Below, in pieces: positions 1,398-20,173 of a stretch of DNA of 20,173 nt. The notes under the pieces were generated by a model. The model worked only from the letters and a program-made list of their open reading frames with translations. It was not told the origin of the DNA and ran no database searches. The first letter of the stretch is position 1. Each line of letters starts with the position of its first letter. Origin of the DNA: a virus; the IMG/VR virus record IMGVR_UViG_3300044732_001134, positions 1 through 20,173 of that record; one strand, given 5' to 3'. Made by a program: the position numbers and the translations under genes.

Positions 1398-1568
1398 TTA
1401 TTCGGCTGCTGGCTGTGGTGCTGGTTGTGGCAACTGGGCTTCTGCTTGTGCGCGAACTTTTTGAGATAGCGGATTGCAGATTTTAGCAGGCAGTTCTTGC
1501 AGTCCGGCTAGGATAGCATTAACTTCGTCAACAGACAGGTCAGAAAGGTTGATTTTAATATCGTTCAT
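1398..1568 (-). CDS. Small conserved-looking phage protein (56 residues)
   Basis: An open frame of 56 codons. Its N-terminal half (KINLSDLSVDEVNAILAGLQ, then ELPAKI) has the look of a small protein often encoded by tailed phages, with a pattern of the type LTVEETN-x-LxALxELP. Its last 15 residues are Gln/Pro/Ala-rich. No function is known to me. The gene ends 8 bases before a strong terminator and begins about 20 bases after the endonuclease stop codon. The ribosome site before the ATG at 1568 is weak. The coding call rests on protein-like composition, a full open frame and a snug fit between endonuclease and terminator. The homing endonuclease may have inserted between this gene and the reductase. 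Confidence 0.72.
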   Translation of the reverse strand: MNDIKINLSDLSVDEVNAILAGLQELPAKICNPLSQKVRAQAEAQLPQPAPQPAAE

Positions 1569-1589: not shown

Positions 1590-2282
1590 TTAGGCTAGTT
1601 TCCAGCCTTTATGGGTTTTTCTTACCTTATTTAAGACTCCACATAAGTGGCTCTTATTAAGATCATGCTGTCTAGCAAATTCGCTAAGATTACTTATAGT
1701 GTATGCAGTGTTATTTGGTGATAGTATAATAGGGTACTTTATATTTTTATGTTTAGCGGTATTAATTGACCTATTATGTTTCAGACTAAGTAAACATTCA
1801 TAGTCTTCTGAGTATAGTGAAGCTAACCATTTATGTGATTTACCTTTTGATATATCGCGAATAGTAGAAATTTCTACTCCAGTAGTTTTTGCAATATCCT
1901 TAAACGGAATGTCCAGTAAAAGATTTTTAAAAACTGTAAGTATTGTTTCTTTTGAGTACTTGGAATTAGGGTGTGCGTCTCCCTGTAGTCCAGTACCTCC
2001 GCCGCCCGCCTTTGAGTTAATATTAAATCCATTATTAACAGAATTAAAAATCTCAATAGCCTCATTTTCAAGCATATCTAAATTATCTTCTAAAGTACAC
2101 TCTAGTAATACTTCTAAGTAAGGTACACCATATAATAAATAAGCTTGCTGCAATTTAATTGAGGCAATATTATTTGCTAGGTTGTATTTATGTTTAGTCA
2201 ATCTTTCTTCTATTCTCAGAGATTGACCCACATAAACTTTATTAGTTCCATTAAATTTTAGTAAATAAATGCCTATAGTCAT
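1590..2282 (-). CDS. GIY-YIG homing endonuclease, free-standing
   Basis: A 230-residue DNA endonuclease expected to cut an allele lacking the insert and so spread itself. The catalytic module is at the N-terminus: GIY at 4-6, YVG at 17-19, Arg27, His31 and the metal-binding Glu74 in ENEAIEIF, spacing typical of I-TevI-type enzymes. Then a Gly-rich linker (GGGGTG), a helix-turn-helix segment containing HPNSKYS and ISTIRDISKGKSHKW, and a C-terminal DNA-binding motif ending HKGWKLA, as seen in phage homing enzymes. The ATG at 2282 is chosen over an upstream TTG (2300) because it puts GIY at the usual place and AGGA lies 9 bases before it. The gene is visibly more A/T-rich than its neighbours, fitting recent transfer. 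It carries its own promoter and a hairpin over its ribosome site. Confidence 0.93.
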   Translation of the reverse strand: MTIGIYLLKFNGTNKVYVGQSLRIEERLTKHKYNLANNIASIKLQQAYLLYGVPYLEVLLECTLEDNLDMLENEAIEIFNSVNNGFNINSKAGGGGTGLQGDAHPNSKYSKETILTVFKNLLLDIPFKDIAKTTGVEISTIRDISKGKSHKWLASLYSEDYECLLSLKHNRSINTAKHKNIKYPIILSPNNTAYTISNLSEFARQHDLNKSHLCGVLNKVRKTHKGWKLA

Positions 2283-2334
2283 AATATTGTGTCCTAACAA
2301 ATATTTTATATTATACTATTTTGGACACAATATT
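2283..2334 (-). promoter_or_regulatory. Perfect 12-bp inverted repeat covering the endonuclease ribosome site
   Basis: AATATTGTGTCC (minus strand, 2334-2323) pairs perfectly with GGACACAATATT (2294-2283) across a 28-base loop. The second arm includes GGA of the AGGA ribosome site (2292-2295) and ends at the base before the ATG (2282). In RNA read through from the reductase gene the site would be hidden in the stem. RNA started at the internal promoter (start near 2303) would lack the first arm. Confidence 0.78.
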
Positions 2335-2338
2335 TCAA
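2310..2338 (-). promoter_or_regulatory. Promoter inside the hairpin, for the homing endonuclease
   Basis: TTGAAA (2333-2338), 17-base spacer, TATAAT (2310-2315). The -10 lies in the loop of the inverted repeat and the -35 overlaps the outer end of its first arm, so a protein bound to the dyad could also block transcription. Predicted start near 2303, leader about 20 bases. Confidence 0.82.
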
Positions 2339-2356
2339 GTACAAATTTTTACTACG

Positions 2357-4324
2357 TCATTTTATAGGACAGGCTCCCGTGGCGCACTCTGCATCGGTAA
2401 TTTCGTCAAAACTGTTGGTGTTATTTAAGTCTACTGTTAAAAGTGTTTTAACGTACTCGTGGTAAGTTTCTTCTGTTACTACTTCTTGTGGAAGATATAA
2501 GTATCCAAGGTCTTTGGCAGTTTTAGTAGGGTCTGTGCGATAGATAAAACTCACACCCACATAACAATCCCAGTTTAGTAACAACCAGTCAATGATCGCA
2601 GGAATTTCGCCGGGATCATAACTAATAGTTACTGATGTGTTCTGTTGGTTCCAACTAGTTTGCAATAGTTTGTAACGCTCCAACTGTACCACAGCTGATT
2701 CGATATTAACTTCTTTGCCGTCAACTTTATCAAATGGAACTCCATCCCACATTACTGGAAACGTAACAAGAACTCCAGAATCATCAACAGGATGATTAAT
2801 AACACGGTAACCCGCTTGACGTAGTTTTTCAACCACCGGGTCATGTTTGCTAAACTGAACATTGTTGAAAATGTACTTTCCTAGTGGTTTGTGTACTCCT
2901 TCTGGGCAATCCATGATTTTGCTGAGAGTGCCTGAAGGCTTGATACAAGTTACGTTCTTGGGAGCAGGTAAACCCAGTTCTAAACTCATACCCACAGCAG
3001 CCGATGTGGCAGTACGCTTTAAGTATTCATAGTCATAGCTGCCCATGTCAGGACGCATTGCAATACCAGTTAAGCCTACACCGCAAAGTCGTAAGAAATA
3101 GTTGTTAAGGTGCCAAGACTCTTGAAGAATGCCGTCCTGAAGGTTAACACACGTTTGTCGGTAGTTGGCACGAGCTGCCAGTCGTATAGCGTTGTGCAAA
3201 CCGGCAGTGTCGCCTTTGAACTTGGCAATGTCAGTTTCGGTAAGGTTACAGAAAGCCTTATTACCGAGTAAGATTTCAACGCATGGATTGGCTCCCTTAA
3301 ACCACGGAGCGCGTCTGAGTGCTTCAACTTCATTGATAAATCCTGGTTCACTACCACCGGCTTCAGTCATCATCCCAAAGATGCGTTCTAAGTCGGTTTT
3401 TAGTGGTTTCTTTTTAAATACTAAACTGTTGTTTGATTGTGTGCGGTGCTGGTTATTATGCAACCACCAGTCTTTTTTGGCTACTGCGAATTCTTCCCAT
3501 TCTGGCTGGTCATAGTCAAATAAAGCGATCTCGGCACTACGACGACTAGATAGAATAGTACCCAGGTGGTTAACAATATCGAGGATATCCATCCGAGTAA
3601 GTAAACTATCAGCACGGCCGTTGAGGATATTTGCAATAGCCACGTATGCAGTGGATATAGCACTGTCGCCACTTGAAATCCATCCATAGCCTTTTAGTCT
3701 TTCACCTGCTGGTCGTAGTTGCGAAAAGTCGAGTACGAGCGTATCAGCGGAATATTTTCCAGCCAGTAGTTTGCCAATTGACTTTGCCCAGGCTTCTGCA
3801 CTGTCTCCGATTTGAATTGTCCAGGTTTTGGTGTCTGGTTCCCAGTACTCAACGTTGTGCTCATTGCCACCTTTGGCAGTGCGTGTGCTTCTAACCACTC
3901 GAATGTTCTTGATTGGCTTTGAAAATCCATTTAGCGTTCCTACAATTGGTTTAAATCCAACGCCGCAACCTTGTAGCAACAACCATAAGACGTCTACTAC
4001 GTCATAGATTGTTTCAACGTGTGTAAAGCTGCAATTGAACTGAGATGCTTCACGTGTTTTGGCTACGTTAGTGCCGCCAAGCCACAGTGTGCGACCACTC
4101 ATTAGCACTTTGCGATCTAGCATTAGTTGCTCAAGATCATAAAGTTCCGAGTATTCTAGGTCGTTTAAGTCACGACCAACTGCCCGCTCCCACAACCACT
4201 GTTGGTGGTCAATAACACGTGCAACTGTTTCTGCCCATGTTTCAAATTGTTTTCCGTCGTCTGAGGTAGGGCGGTTGTATGTACGACGTGTAATTACTTG
4301 TGCTCGTGTTGATGGTAGGTTCAT
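2357..4324 (-). CDS. rtpR: Adenosylcobalamin-dependent (class II) ribonucleoside-triphosphate reductase
   Basis: A monomeric B12-dependent reductase of 655 residues that turns ribonucleoside triphosphates into deoxy forms, supplying phage DNA synthesis with or without oxygen. Key residues match the spacing in the Lactobacillus leichmannii enzyme: Cys98 (FNCSF) and Cys359 as the redox pair, Cys348 in NPCVE as the thiyl-radical cysteine exactly 11 residues before Cys359, Glu350 two residues after it, and a C-terminal Cys647-x4-Cys652 shuttle pair (ECATGACPIK). Most family members have NPCGE; here Gly is Val. It is somewhat shorter than the about 740-residue reference. The ATG at 4324 has AAGGA about 6 bases upstream. 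The lipoprotein and dUTPase genes lie just upstream in the same transcript, and no terminator separates it from the endonuclease downstream. The electron donor may be the phage glutaredoxin at 8674-8946. Confidence 0.93.
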   Translation of the reverse strand: MNLPSTRAQVITRRTYNRPTSDDGKQFETWAETVARVIDHQQWLWERAVGRDLNDLEYSELYDLEQLMLDRKVLMSGRTLWLGGTNVAKTREASQFNCSFTHVETIYDVVDVLWLLLQGCGVGFKPIVGTLNGFSKPIKNIRVVRSTRTAKGGNEHNVEYWEPDTKTWTIQIGDSAEAWAKSIGKLLAGKYSADTLVLDFSQLRPAGERLKGYGWISSGDSAISTAYVAIANILNGRADSLLTRMDILDIVNHLGTILSSRRSAEIALFDYDQPEWEEFAVAKKDWWLHNNQHRTQSNNSLVFKKKPLKTDLERIFGMMTEAGGSEPGFINEVEALRRAPWFKGANPCVEILLGNKAFCNLTETDIAKFKGDTAGLHNAIRLAARANYRQTCVNLQDGILQESWHLNNYFLRLCGVGLTGIAMRPDMGSYDYEYLKRTATSAAVGMSLELGLPAPKNVTCIKPSGTLSKIMDCPEGVHKPLGKYIFNNVQFSKHDPVVEKLRQAGYRVINHPVDDSGVLVTFPVMWDGVPFDKVDGKEVNIESAVVQLERYKLLQTSWNQQNTSVTISYDPGEIPAIIDWLLLNWDCYVGVSFIYRTDPTKTAKDLGYLYLPQEVVTEETYHEYVKTLLTVDLNNTNSFDEITDAECATGACPIK

Positions 4325-6866: not shown

Positions 6867-8705
6867 TTATACCTCGATTTGTGATATGTTGTTGTGTTTG
6901 ACAACATTTACCTTTTCTAGTAAGGGATGTGTAAATCCATGCGATACCAAAAAGGTGTTTAGGTGTTCTTCGCCTAGTAGAACTTCTACTAGTCGTTCTT
7001 TGCCATCCACATCCAGTGCCTCAACTGTTTCGTCCAAGATCAACAAGTTAATTCTGCTTGAACTTAGGGTCTGCATTAGTTTGCGAATAGCTAACAATGT
7101 GGCTACGTTAACTCTGGCACGTTCACCACCGCTTAGTGCCAGTATTTCAATATCACGACCATTGTCTGTGATAACCACATTTAGTTTATCACTAGCCGAA
7201 ATTTTAAAACCAATTTGAAAACGACCGTCTGACAAGTCAACCAAGTAGCTGTTTGTGATTTCTTCTAGGTCTTTGACCAAGCACTCAATTTTGTAAGCCA
7301 CTAAGCCAGTGGTTGAAAACGTTTTTGTTAGCACGTTAACAGTACTCATGCGCTCTGATAGCTCGTGTAAGTTTGTGCTGTAGGTTTCCAACTCACTATT
7401 CATTTCAGTGATCTGAGTGCTCAATGACTCCACACGCGCATTGTGTGCACTAGCAGCCAAGTTGTGCTTTTCGGCTTGTGCAATCGCAGTTTTTAAGTTG
7501 CTGATTGCAGTTTGCAGTGCTTGAAACTTTGAATCCAGTTCGTTTTTGTCTAACAAGTCTGTGCTGATTTCTGGGTCAATAAGTGCATGGTACTTTTCCC
7601 ATTCTTCACTGGACTTGTTTGCGTTTTCCCAGGTTTGAGTACGTTTGACGATATCTGCACGTAGTGCGTCTAGTTCACGAATACGTGCTGTTAGTGCCAT
7701 ATTGCTGGTTTGTGCAAAGTCTTGAATTTTTTCTTGCTCAGCTACTAGTTCAGCAATCTTGGCTTCATCAATCTCTTGTAAACAAGTCGGGCACGTTCCG
7801 TGCAGTGCAGCAATCTTTTTAACAAATGCTTGCGAATCACGAATTGTTTTTGAATGCTCAACTACTTGTTTGTCTAGCTGAGTGCTTTCGGTAACCAATG
7901 GACGCACATCTTCACTGGGCTTTTCAGGAATTGGAAACAGCTTGATTTTTGACTGTAGCTGGCGATAAGTGTTGTTTTGCGTGATACGTTTATTAATAGC
8001 TTCTAAGCTACCAATTTGCGTTTCAAGCTCAGCACTACCAGTTACCAGTTCATCTGGAACTGTGGGAACTGCTTGCAGCGGTTTAGGTAACAGGTTTGTG
8101 TTGGCATACTTGGTTAACCAAGCATTAACAGTGTCTACTTGAGCCTGCACTTTGGCAATATCACGGCTTAGCTCTTGAGCAGTTTCCTTAAAAACTTCTT
8201 GTGCTTGAGTATACTTGCCCAAGTTCAAGATTTCAATTAAGAACTTTTTACGTGCTGTGTCAGGTGCAGTTAAAAACTCTAGACTACCAGCATTTGACTG
8301 ATACACAATCTGACTAAAGCTCTTGTGATCAAATCCCAAGATTTCTTCAATGGCTTTGTAAGTTTGTGTGCTGGTGTGTGCACTAATGTCTGTGCTACCA
8401 CGAAACAGCTTAACGGTTTGAGTACTACCACGACGTGTGTTGATTGTGTACTCTGTGCCGTCTTTTTCAAACACCAGCGAGATTTCGTAGTGTTTGCTGT
8501 CAACATAGCGATTGATAATATCGGCTTTTTTAATTGACTTTGAATTCTTGTTGAACAGGACTTCTTCTAGGATAAGTGCAATAGAACTTTTACCGTGGCC
8601 GTTTTTGCCTACCAGCTGCGTTAGCTGTGCATTGGAAAAATCAATAGAATTGTCCGCGCCGTAACTGAAAGCATTAGACCATGCTAGTGTTTTTATTGTT
8701 ATCAT
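6867..8705 (-). CDS. SbcC/gp46-like ATPase subunit of recombination nuclease (T5 D13 type)
   Basis: SMC-like ATPase (612 residues) that pairs with the SbcD-like nuclease to process DNA ends and branched DNA. It shows the Walker A motif GKNGHGKSS (33-41), a long coiled-coil arm, a zinc-hook CPTC (Cys305, Cys308) at the arm tip, a second coiled coil, the ABC signature LSGGERARVNV (524-534) and Walker B LLILDE (554-559). The Glu that ends Walker B is the catalytic base. The length is near that of phage SbcC-type proteins and well below E. coli SbcC (about 1050) because the arms are short. The ATG at 8705 overlaps the glutaredoxin gene by 32 bases and has no clear ribosome site, so translation is probably coupled. 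Confidence 0.93.
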   Translation of the reverse strand: MITIKTLAWSNAFSYGADNSIDFSNAQLTQLVGKNGHGKSSIALILEEVLFNKNSKSIKKADIINRYVDSKHYEISLVFEKDGTEYTINTRRGSTQTVKLFRGSTDISAHTSTQTYKAIEEILGFDHKSFSQIVYQSNAGSLEFLTAPDTARKKFLIEILNLGKYTQAQEVFKETAQELSRDIAKVQAQVDTVNAWLTKYANTNLLPKPLQAVPTVPDELVTGSAELETQIGSLEAINKRITQNNTYRQLQSKIKLFPIPEKPSEDVRPLVTESTQLDKQVVEHSKTIRDSQAFVKKIAALHGTCPTCLQEIDEAKIAELVAEQEKIQDFAQTSNMALTARIRELDALRADIVKRTQTWENANKSSEEWEKYHALIDPEISTDLLDKNELDSKFQALQTAISNLKTAIAQAEKHNLAASAHNARVESLSTQITEMNSELETYSTNLHELSERMSTVNVLTKTFSTTGLVAYKIECLVKDLEEITNSYLVDLSDGRFQIGFKISASDKLNVVITDNGRDIEILALSGGERARVNVATLLAIRKLMQTLSSSRINLLILDETVEALDVDGKERLVEVLLGEEHLNTFLVSHGFTHPLLEKVNVVKHNNISQIEV

Positions 8706-17922: not shown

Positions 17923-18672
17923 TTAAGCTGCTGCTTTAGCTTCGGCTTTGGCTTTTTTAGCTGCACCATCATAGTCAGCAACTTTGATACCACGGCGAGT
18001 CAGCAATGTACGCAGACCACGTTCTGTTTTGTCAACAGCAGCTGCAATTTCTGCAACTGTCATGGCATGAATACGATCACCAAGGGCAACCACTGGATCA
18101 ACAGATTCTTTGGCATGAGACTCACGCTGTGCTGGAATCTTGCTAATCTGACCCTTACGTGTCAAGCTCAGGGCTTTACCACGAACACTGGCAACAGTCT
18201 TGTTGAGCTTGGCAGCGATATCTTCAATAAAGTTACCGGCATCAGCCATTTTCACAAAAGTGGCTTCTTCGGCTTCGGTATAAGTACGAGCCACTTCCAC
18301 TTTTTCAGCTGGCTTTACACTGCCAGTTAGTTCCAGGGCCAGCAATTTGCCTTGGATTTGTTTTGCAGTGAACTTGCCGTCAGCAAAGTTTTCAGCAATT
18401 TCTTTGTAAGTCAAGTTACCTGCATTAGCACTCACGAAATCGGCAAGATCAGCGCCTTCGTCGGGTGTAAATGCACTGGTTTTTTCTTTTGCAAGACTAG
18501 CAACTTCACGGTCAAGTTGACGCAGTTTAGATGCAATACTGCGAGTAGTTTTACCCAGTTGTTCAGCAGCACGCTCAACGCTATCAACGCTAACGGGGCT
18601 TTCGCTTCCAACGATTTGCATCAGTTGGTCAACAGCTTCGTCAGACCAGTTTTTAGTAGCTTTTTCAGTCAT
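17923..18672 (-). CDS. DNA-binding protein with about four HTH/Myb-like repeats (T5 D5-like candidate)
   Basis: A 249-residue basic, Ala-rich protein built from repeated units of about 45 residues. Each has an (F/Y/W)(T/S)x(D/E)E-like entry or a related helix, followed by an IAxxLxKTxxSVxxK-like recognition helix: residues 9-53 (NWSDEAV to SIASKLRQL), 68-114 (FTPDEGA to QIQGKLLAL), 131-170 (YTEAEEA to SVRGKALSL) and 204-230 (MTVAEIA to LRTLLTRRGI, shorter). The tail is Lys/Ala-rich. This points to cooperative double-stranded DNA binding. In T5 the D5 protein, an abundant DNA-binding regulator needed for replication and late transcription, is of similar size; identity with D5 is inference from size and place. 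The ATG at 18672 overlaps the ligase C-part by 8 bases. A strong terminator follows. Confidence 0.75.
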   Translation of the reverse strand: MTEKATKNWSDEAVDQLMQIVGSESPVSVDSVERAAEQLGKTTRSIASKLRQLDREVASLAKEKTSAFTPDEGADLADFVSANAGNLTYKEIAENFADGKFTAKQIQGKLLALELTGSVKPAEKVEVARTYTEAEEATFVKMADAGNFIEDIAAKLNKTVASVRGKALSLTRKGQISKIPAQRESHAKESVDPVVALGDRIHAMTVAEIAAAVDKTERGLRTLLTRRGIKVADYDGAAKKAKAEAKAAA

Positions 18673-19432
18673 TTGTATTTTCTTTCAAGAAAGTATTTAG
18701 GTTTGTTATAATTGGGATGCCAAGTGATTCGGCTTTTTTGCGTTTTGTACTAGCCTTATCTTCTTCATCAACCAAATAGTCAGTGGTTTTAGTCACAGAC
18801 TCTACTGCTCTGTATCCGGCAGCTTCCAGTGCTTGATAAGCATCTGCTTTGGTTTTGTAAGAAGATAGTTTTCCAGTGATACAAACAGTTTTAGAATTGT
18901 TGTTACTGATTGTATTGGAATTTCTATTAGACTTAAAAGAGAACGGCAAAAACTCTCGTAAGTCAGGGAAATCTGTTTGTAACCAACCAACTAGGTTTTC
19001 GGTTACTTTGTCGCCTAAACCGGCTTGTTTGCAGGTTTCGTATGTGATTTGATCAATATGCTCAACCACTTCACAAATCTTTTTTGATGCTGTGCTGCCA
19101 ACTAGGGTAATCGAGAAACTTGCTAATACTGTGGCTAAGTCAACAGTTTTGGCACGTTCAATTTCATCTAGTAGTTTTGCGGCAGTTTTTTCACTGCCCA
19201 GGGCTTCTGTTACTGTATCCAAATCCAAATAAAACAGCTCAGTTAAATCTTGTAAGTCAAGCTTTTCTACTGTCTTTGGGCCCATGCCTTTGATGCCAAG
19301 GGTCTTACAAAAGTGCTCTAGTTTTTTACCCAGCTGTGCACTGCAAGCTGTGTTGCGGCAAAAGAGTTGGTCATTGACCAATTCAAGTGTGTAGCTACAG
19401 CAGGGGCAAACGGTTGGGATTTCGATCTTCAT
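18665..19432 (-). CDS. ligB: NAD+-dependent DNA ligase, C-terminal subunit (Zn finger, HhH, BRCT)
   Basis: A separate 255-residue protein that equals the C-terminal part of bacterial LigA. It has a four-cysteine zinc finger (Cys9, Cys12, Cys25, Cys30), helix-hairpin-helix repeats from about residue 40 to 150 (GIKGMGPKTVEKL and later copies) that bind the DNA backbone, a low-complexity Asn/Ser linker at about 168-180, and a BRCT domain to the end (TVCITGKLSSYKTKADA, TKTTDYLV, LGIPIITN). It should bind the nicked DNA and complement the adenylating subunit encoded upstream. T5 also has its NAD+ ligase as two subunits annotated A and B. It has its own promoter (19458-19486), with a leader of about 20 bases. 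Confidence 0.92.
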   Translation of the reverse strand: MKIEIPTVCPCCSYTLELVNDQLFCRNTACSAQLGKKLEHFCKTLGIKGMGPKTVEKLDLQDLTELFYLDLDTVTEALGSEKTAAKLLDEIERAKTVDLATVLASFSITLVGSTASKKICEVVEHIDQITYETCKQAGLGDKVTENLVGWLQTDFPDLREFLPFSFKSNRNSNTISNNNSKTVCITGKLSSYKTKADAYQALEAAGYRAVESVTKTTDYLVDEEDKASTKRKKAESLGIPIITNLNTFLKENTND

Positions 19433-19457
19433 AGTGGTTTATTGCTTTGTAGACTAT

Positions 19458-19486
19458 ATTATAACTGATTGGGACGGCTTTGACAA
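19458..19486 (-). promoter_or_regulatory. Promoter between the two ligase genes (copy 2 of a duplicated promoter)
   Basis: TTGTCA (19481-19486), 17-base spacer, TATAAT (19458-19463). The sequence 19451-19496 matches 10972-11017 in its upstream 18 bases and its last 13 bases while the spacer differs. It makes the C-terminal ligase subunit and the HTH-repeat gene expressible apart from the N-terminal subunit. Confidence 0.85.
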
Positions 19487-19503
19487 GTGTAAATTTTTAT
19501 TGC

Positions 19504-20173
19504 TTAAGCATCAACTTTGTGCAAGATGCAAGGAATGATTTCACCAGCGCGAATAACCGCCACGGTGTCGCCAATACGCAGGTCTAGCATTTCAATAAAA
19601 CCAGGATTATTAAGAGTAGCACGACTGACGAGAGCATCGCCAATAAGCACAGGTTCAAGAATTGCCACTGGGCTAACTTTGCCACTCTTGCCGACTTGCC
19701 ACTCAACTGCAACAAGTTTGGTTTCAACATGGGCTGCCCGTTCTTTTTTAGCATACGCACCGCGCGGATGCTTGGCCGTATACCCCATCTCGTAGAACTG
19801 ACTATTGTTATTGACTCGGAACACAACACCATCACACGGGAATATTTTGTCGAGGTCTGGTTCATTGATTACTCCAAAGCCTGCCAGTTGCAGTGCTGCC
19901 AAGTCTGCGTTAAATGTTTCGTGTAGGCTAGGCTGAACGCCATAGGCAAAGAAACTGAGTGCTCGTGATTGAAATTCGGACACATCTTTTAAGTTAAGTG
20001 CGCCTGCGGCATAGTTGCGAGCATTTTCAATGTTGAGTGGAGCCACAATCTCACCAGTGATCTGGTAAACGCCTGGCCACGGCACAGTTTGTGGCACAAT
20101 AGGATTGCCCAAGAACTTGTCAGTTACAATCTGACCTTCTACACCATCCCCACGGGTAAGAACTCGAACAAGA
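19504..20173 (-). CDS. ligA: NAD+-dependent DNA ligase, N-terminal subunit (partial; 5' end outside window)
   Basis: The reading frame is open to the right edge, giving 223 codons of the adenylation and OB parts of an NAD+-dependent ligase. Visible family signatures in order are LTRGDGVEGQIVT near the edge, the GEIVAPL strand, DGVVFRV (motif IV), TAKHPRGAYAKK (motif V), VEWQVGKSGKVSPVA, SRATLNNPGF and IGDTVAVIRAGEIIP of the OB fold. The product stops right after the OB fold, where bacterial LigA would continue into its zinc finger. That remainder is encoded by the next gene. The adenylated lysine and NAD-binding Ia domain must lie to the right of the window. The first in-window start-like codon (TTG at 20112) is internal and not the real start. 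Confidence 0.93.
   Translation of the reverse strand, partial: LVRVLTRGDGVEGQIVTDKFLGNPIVPQTVPWPGVYQITGEIVAPLNIENARNYAAGALNLKDVSEFQSRALSFFAYGVQPSLHETFNADLAALQLAGFGVINEPDLDKIFPCDGVVFRVNNNSQFYEMGYTAKHPRGAYAKKERAAHVETKLVAVEWQVGKSGKVSPVAILEPVLIGDALVSRATLNNPGFIEMLDLRIGDTVAVIRAGEIIPCILHKVDA

Follow-up and report, generated by a model that had tools for sequence, protein, structure and literature searches.

What purpose does a perfect inverted repeat serve when it encloses the promoter of a phage homing endonuclease gene (HEG) and also covers the ribosome-binding site of that gene? The question is raised by the leader of a GIY-YIG gene in a 20,173-base IMG/VR contig, the whole of which is referred to here as the window. 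The arrangement is quite probably a lock against read-through, carried by a mobile gene, whereby translation is blocked on incoming RNA and released by the gene's own promoter.

The endonuclease gene and its leader

The minus strand of the window carries genes for a DNA polymerase, a helicase, a primase and a B12-dependent ribonucleotide reductase, an SbcC-like gene, and also two separate NAD-ligase-like ORFs; the ligase name of the first is our reading. The NAD-ligase-like sequence is split over these two ORFs (positions 18665-20112), the downstream one displaying its own TTGTCA-17-TATAAT promoter. The DNA polymerase is closest to the polymerases of Vibrio phages, e.g., pVp-1 (~50% identity), which we take to be T5-like, and the T5-like origin proposed in the preliminary description agrees with this. 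The HEG has the reductase gene on one side and a 56-aa ORF on the other. In keeping with that description, no terminator-like site is found in the window sequence from the reductase stop to the hairpin. The features of the unit, in the order of reading of the minus strand, are as follows.

2357..4324, minus strand: B12-dependent ribonucleotide reductase gene, the presumed source of read-through RNA (Pfam)
2343..2350, minus strand: UP-like AAAAATTT, directly upstream of the -35 (from the frequency of AAATTT before HEG promoters)
2333..2338, minus strand: -35 hexamer TTGAAA (promoter scan, direct reading)
2323..2334, minus strand: 5′ arm AATATTGTGTCC, in read-through RNA only (inverted repeat, fold)
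2310..2315, minus strand: -10 hexamer TATAAT, in the hairpin loop (17-nt spacer)
2303, minus strand: predicted transcription start, +1 (from the -10 position)
2292..2295, minus strand: ribosome-binding site AGGA, 9 nt from the ATG (direct reading; 3 of its 4 bases are paired in the fold)
2283..2294, minus strand: 3′ arm GGACACAATATT, covering the GGA of the ribosome site and running to the last base before the ATG (inverted repeat, fold)
2282-2280, minus strand: HEG start codon ATG
1590..2282, minus strand: free-standing GIY-YIG HEG, 230 aa, stop at 1590 (Pfam, profile, PHROGs)
1398..1568, minus strand: 56-aa ORF, which adjoins the reductase gene in HEG-less phages (empty site in contig L021)
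1352..1387, minus strand: terminator-like hairpin closing the unit (perfect 12-bp inverted repeat, then a T run; direct reading)

The two arms, 2283-2294 and 2323-2334, complement each other perfectly over 12 bp; they flank the promoter -10 and sit inside a longer, imperfect 22-nt repeat (2283-2304/2313-2334). The promoter, TTGAAA-17-TATAAT, agrees with the consensus in 11 of 12 positions, and its start is placed near 2303 because the -10 lies at 2315-2310. All elements of the original observation, i.e., the repeat with the -10 in its loop, the downstream arm extending from the GGA of the AGGA through the base before the ATG, and the TTGAAA-17-TATAAT promoter, are confirmed on the minus strand at the positions given.

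The window contains three perfect 12-bp repeats with a spacer of up to 60, the other two being terminator-like hairpins; the mean expected per dinucleotide-shuffled whole window is 0.13, and local 150-nt shuffles yielded such a repeat in 3 of 2000 cases. The exact arm sequence is found in the window at the two leader places only, and in addition in three near-identical contigs. A sigma70-like match alone is not unusual (35 promoter-like sites in the window vs 35.6 in shuffles); the four best sites (11/12) are all on the coding strand. Seven promoter-like sites on the minus strand, with -35 starts at 1248, 2338, 6111, 8236, 11007, 15149 and 19486, all read with the coding strand, and several have a UP-element-like A/T tract just upstream.

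Pfam, profile and PHROGs searches agree with the earlier naming of the gene product as a GIY-YIG homing endonuclease. It matches the Pfam GIY-YIG family PF01541 with 23.3 bits (cut-off 22.6), its profile matches the I-TevI catalytic domain (PDB 1mk0) with an E value of 2e-13, and its PHROGs matches are to homing endonucleases. A GIY-YIG catalytic domain with the conserved residues is present, and G4, I5, Y6, Y17, R27, H31, E72 and N87 are invariant across 15 HEG relatives. The C-terminus displays a profile match to a piece of the HNH homing endonuclease 1u3e.

Predicted folding and recurrence in relatives

In the proposed mechanism, RNA entering from the reductase gene would hold both arms, fold and bury the AGGA of the HEG, and little endonuclease would be made from it. 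RNA from the sigma70-type promoter of the HEG would begin in the loop, without the 5′ arm, and its AGGA would be open. The gene's own promoter would then determine the endonuclease level at any site of insertion.

Folding of the two transcripts in silico bears out what had been predicted for them. The RNA of positions 2350-2262 folds at -19.4 kcal/mol (z -3.3, matched by 0 of 200 shuffles), and the RNA from 2303 is nearly unfolded at -0.2 kcal/mol. To compare the start sites, the cost of opening the 15 nt before the ATG through the ATG was calculated for the long and the short RNA. The modelled cost is 16.6 kcal/mol in the read-through RNA vs 2.0 kcal/mol in the RNA begun at 2303, i.e., in these models the ribosome site is buried in the former and free in the latter. 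The effect of the upstream 50 nt on the opening cost was equalled by 7 of 2000 dinucleotide shuffles, and the result is stable for starts at 2301-2305 and for read-through of 100-300 nt. The reductase stop is located ~23 nt before the 5′ arm; thus a ribosome terminating there would probably leave the stem closed. No match to Rfam was detected.

Stronger support for this layout, in which the hairpin masks the ribosome site and the promoter lies in the loop, comes from its recurrence, with changed sequences, in HEG relatives. Scans of viral contigs (IMG/VR) for the HEG family listed 68 and then 80 loci, some common to both, and a search with a promoter-plus-start pattern gave 77 stretches. In the loci covered, 73 distinct HEG starts were recognised, 47 of them preceded by a sigma70-like promoter, the distance from the end of its -10 being 14-40 nt. 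The relatives were assayed by the same opening test of long vs short RNA, with shuffled versions of the upstream 50 nt as the reference. Promoter-bearing HEGs passed at 1% or better in 16 of 47 cases and promoterless HEGs in 1 of 26 (Fisher p 0.003, a value that relatedness inflates). With loosely clustered promoter-bearing members, 8 of 32 passed at 2 in 200 or better and the Fisher p is 0.03; some relatedness persists in the tested set. In the 32 clustered relatives the pairing between a leader's own arms is -9.5, vs -6.6 +/- 0.42 when arms are swapped between members, and none of 20000 arm-exchange permutations matched the own-arm value. Pairs altered on both sides with pairing kept are found in 1 of 12 and 3 of 17 cases, in hand-aligned subgroups of four and three sequences, respectively. 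Contigs L196 (67% aa identity) and L101 (about 50%) have the HEG at the same place behind the reductase gene, each with its own different dyad. In GTDB genomes no relative could be confirmed, named phages show partial, distant relatives only, and the six annotated heg genes that start in the first 50 kb of the T5 genome (AY543070) display no such layout by eye.

The variation among relatives also bears on another explanation, namely that the dyad is a DNA operator over the promoter for a repressor, perhaps the endonuclease itself, whose binding there was the alternative raised in the preliminary description. The dyad does bracket the -10, I-TevI is autorepressed through a homing-site-like operator at its promoter (PMC2988022), and in the HEGs L093 and L114 the dyads around the -10 leave the ribosome site free. 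However, arm sequences and spacings differ between close relatives, no further exact copy of the arm is present in the phage, and dyads that cover the ribosome site are largely confined to promoter-bearing HEGs. Nor does the leader look like the empty insertion site: its best 20-nt matches to three empty sites, compared without gaps in a rough test, were no better than those of shuffles. An operator is judged highly unlikely, and neither binding by the endonuclease itself nor autorepression from a homing-site-like sequence at the promoter gained support.

Other promoters and the question of timing

Raw arm energies, uncorrected for base composition, did not separate HEG promoters from other promoters, and this comparison was replaced by the opening test, in which the shuffles correct for composition. 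A first control set held 10 promoter-gene units, and the 3 that passed were HEGs or HEG-like; the set was widened to 36 units from the same loci, of which 4 passed. Three of these are homing-type nucleases beyond the main HEG family, with the same layout: L143 is GIY-YIG, L317 has treble-clef and HNH/homing PHROGs matches, and L071 combines a treble-clef match and an endonuclease PHROG with a match to T5orf172 that is weak. The sole non-HEG unit that passed, an ORF of 66 aa whose Tad2-like match (Thoeris anti-defence) is weak, displays the full promoter-in-hairpin layout (L277:6888-7085 and upstream, minus strand). With L227 (HNH with AP2) counted as a failing HEG, 1 of 32 non-HEG units passed, and the difference from promoter-bearing HEGs gives a Fisher p of 0.0007, which relatedness inflates and which includes a few HEG-like control units classed after the passing ones were seen.

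Dyads are also found around other promoters more than expected by chance (own pairing -7.40 vs -6.66, 3/5000). At the 1% level they flank 9 of 117, a set that holds a few HEGs, and some leave the ribosome site uncovered. Because of this, a second use of promoter-flanking dyads in such phages, at the level of transcription, is possible. On the minus strands of L027 and L035, promoters at ~4304 and ~4239 (reverse-complement count) have dyads that flank the -10 with the ribosome site uncovered, and they precede a related pair of ORFs of 231-251 aa.

These dyads, and the approximately two thirds of promoter-bearing relatives that fail the opening test and so manage without the hairpin, could suggest that the hairpin is incidental or has some other function unrelated to translation, e.g., in RNA processing or stability. 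The shuffle and arm-exchange tests, the pairs changed on both sides and the burial of the ribosome site speak against this, and we give it hardly any credence.

A separate question is whether the read-through lock acts as a timed switch. The preliminary description had likened the locus to T4 I-TevI, where the hairpin silences early read-through RNA and a later-firing internal promoter turns the enzyme on. The same anatomy is found in I-TevI, I-TevII, I-TevIII, segB and Aeh1 mobE, for which this mode of action, with promoters of the late or middle class, is established or presumed (PMC2988022, PMC3014915). At the HEG of the window, however, the promoter has the same make-up as its neighbours: UP-like AAATTT, TTG, 17 nt, TATAAT. 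By motif class, compared with the promoters of the window and of related contigs, there is no sign of a later class. In a 40-kb sister contig, TTGN20TATAAT occurs 10 times on the coding strand and 0 times on the other. AAATTT falls within the 16 nt that precede the -35 for 19 of 26 HEG promoters vs 42 of 117 other TTGN20TATAAT sites in the same contigs. The A-tract upstream of the -35 had been considered as a mark of the HEG boundary; it is frequent before other promoters too and is therefore read as a UP-like element.

Thus, with a promoter like that of its neighbours, the sign of a timed switch is gone and insulation is indicated. The likeness to T4 holds for the layout of hairpin and promoter, as seen in folding and in relatives, but is not supported for the timing. 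A timed switch is considered unlikely, although the sigma70-type promoters of T5-like phages may be timed by other means. We favour insulation from read-through, as in IS10 and IS50, over an early/late switch.

Mobility of the gene and relation to known systems

The HEG is found in occupied and empty alleles at one site. In L021, whose reductase protein is 98% identical, it is absent and the 56-aa ORF follows ~20 nt after the reductase stop. Base identity between the two reductase genes is ~99% over most of their length and drops to 81/100 near the 3′ end; the divergence rises steeply towards the HEG over window positions 2357-2960. On the side of the HEG away from the reductase, the two sequences are 97.6% identical from the start. 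We read the 3′ divergence of the reductase gene as probable one-sided co-conversion with the inserted HEG; the empty site and the divergence rising towards the gene mark a mobile insertion.

In the sister contig IMGVR_UViG_3300042486_001136 (L219:2900-3780), a further GIY-YIG HEG separates the two NAD-ligase ORFs and has a promoter of its own, along with a hairpin over its ribosome-binding site; positions 19432-19520 of the window represent the empty allele. In the HEG-less phage L024, a promoter with the dyad TGTCTAACAC/GTGTTAGACA lies at positions 7966-8110, in the stretch that separates the reductase gene from the small ORF.

Since the layout recurs in HEGs that have their own, ordinary promoter, and hardly in promoterless ones, its basic use is suggested to be the shielding of the nuclease from transcription of the host-site gene. 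Tentatively, and with somewhat more doubt than trust, we propose that diverse HEGs in uncultivated phages (the GIY-YIG family, T5orf172-like GIY-YIG and treble-clef HNH-type) have repeatedly built promoter-in-hairpin locks from unrelated arms, as a portable read-through insulator with ordinary sigma70-type promoters and no timing switch. To our knowledge, and in the literature searched, hairpin control of homing endonucleases is known only from T4-like phages, mostly with late promoters. The mechanism itself is thus not new. What is apparently new is that it extends through a family of free-standing GIY-YIG genes beyond the T4-like phages, with ordinary promoters: no such spread was found in the literature searched, outside which many subscription papers lie, and this is not proof. 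The HEG relatives offer many natural variants with paired changes for reporter study.

The likeness to T4 I-TevI, I-TevII, I-TevIII and segB is that a hairpin in the upstream-initiated RNA buries the ribosome site of the endonuclease and that an internal promoter gives RNA without the 5′ arm; with I-TevI the GIY-YIG catalytic domain is also shared. Unlike I-TevI to III, which are intron-borne, the HEG of the window is free-standing. The late promoter of segB is a predicted T4 one, whereas the HEG promoter is of the sigma70 type, like those of its neighbours, and unlike at I-TevI, no homing-site-like operator was found there. Aeh1 mobE of an Aeromonas phage, as reviewed in PMC2988022 and PMC3014915, is likewise free-standing and linked to a ribonucleotide reductase gene, and it has a hairpin on the ribosome site and a promoter nearby. 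It is, however, an HNH enzyme inside nrdA of a T4-like phage.

The HEG is not a transposon, and its similarity to IS10 and IS50 is one of working, not of membership. In IS10, IS50 and IS200, translation of the transposase is blocked on incoming RNA by a hairpin that buries the start, and the gene's own promoter starts inside it. By analogy, the HEG shares with these elements the mobile gene, the start buried on incoming RNA and the promoter inside the hairpin. In the insertion sequences, by contrast, the gene encodes a transposase and the arm derives from the end region of the transposon, and IS10 and IS200 add antisense RNA control. PMC2965389, which cites the original studies (Davis 1985, Beuzon 1999), describes terminators that lie upstream of transposase genes and serve a similar purpose. 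Shielding from read-through, as proposed for the HEG, would be the same problem that transposons solve.
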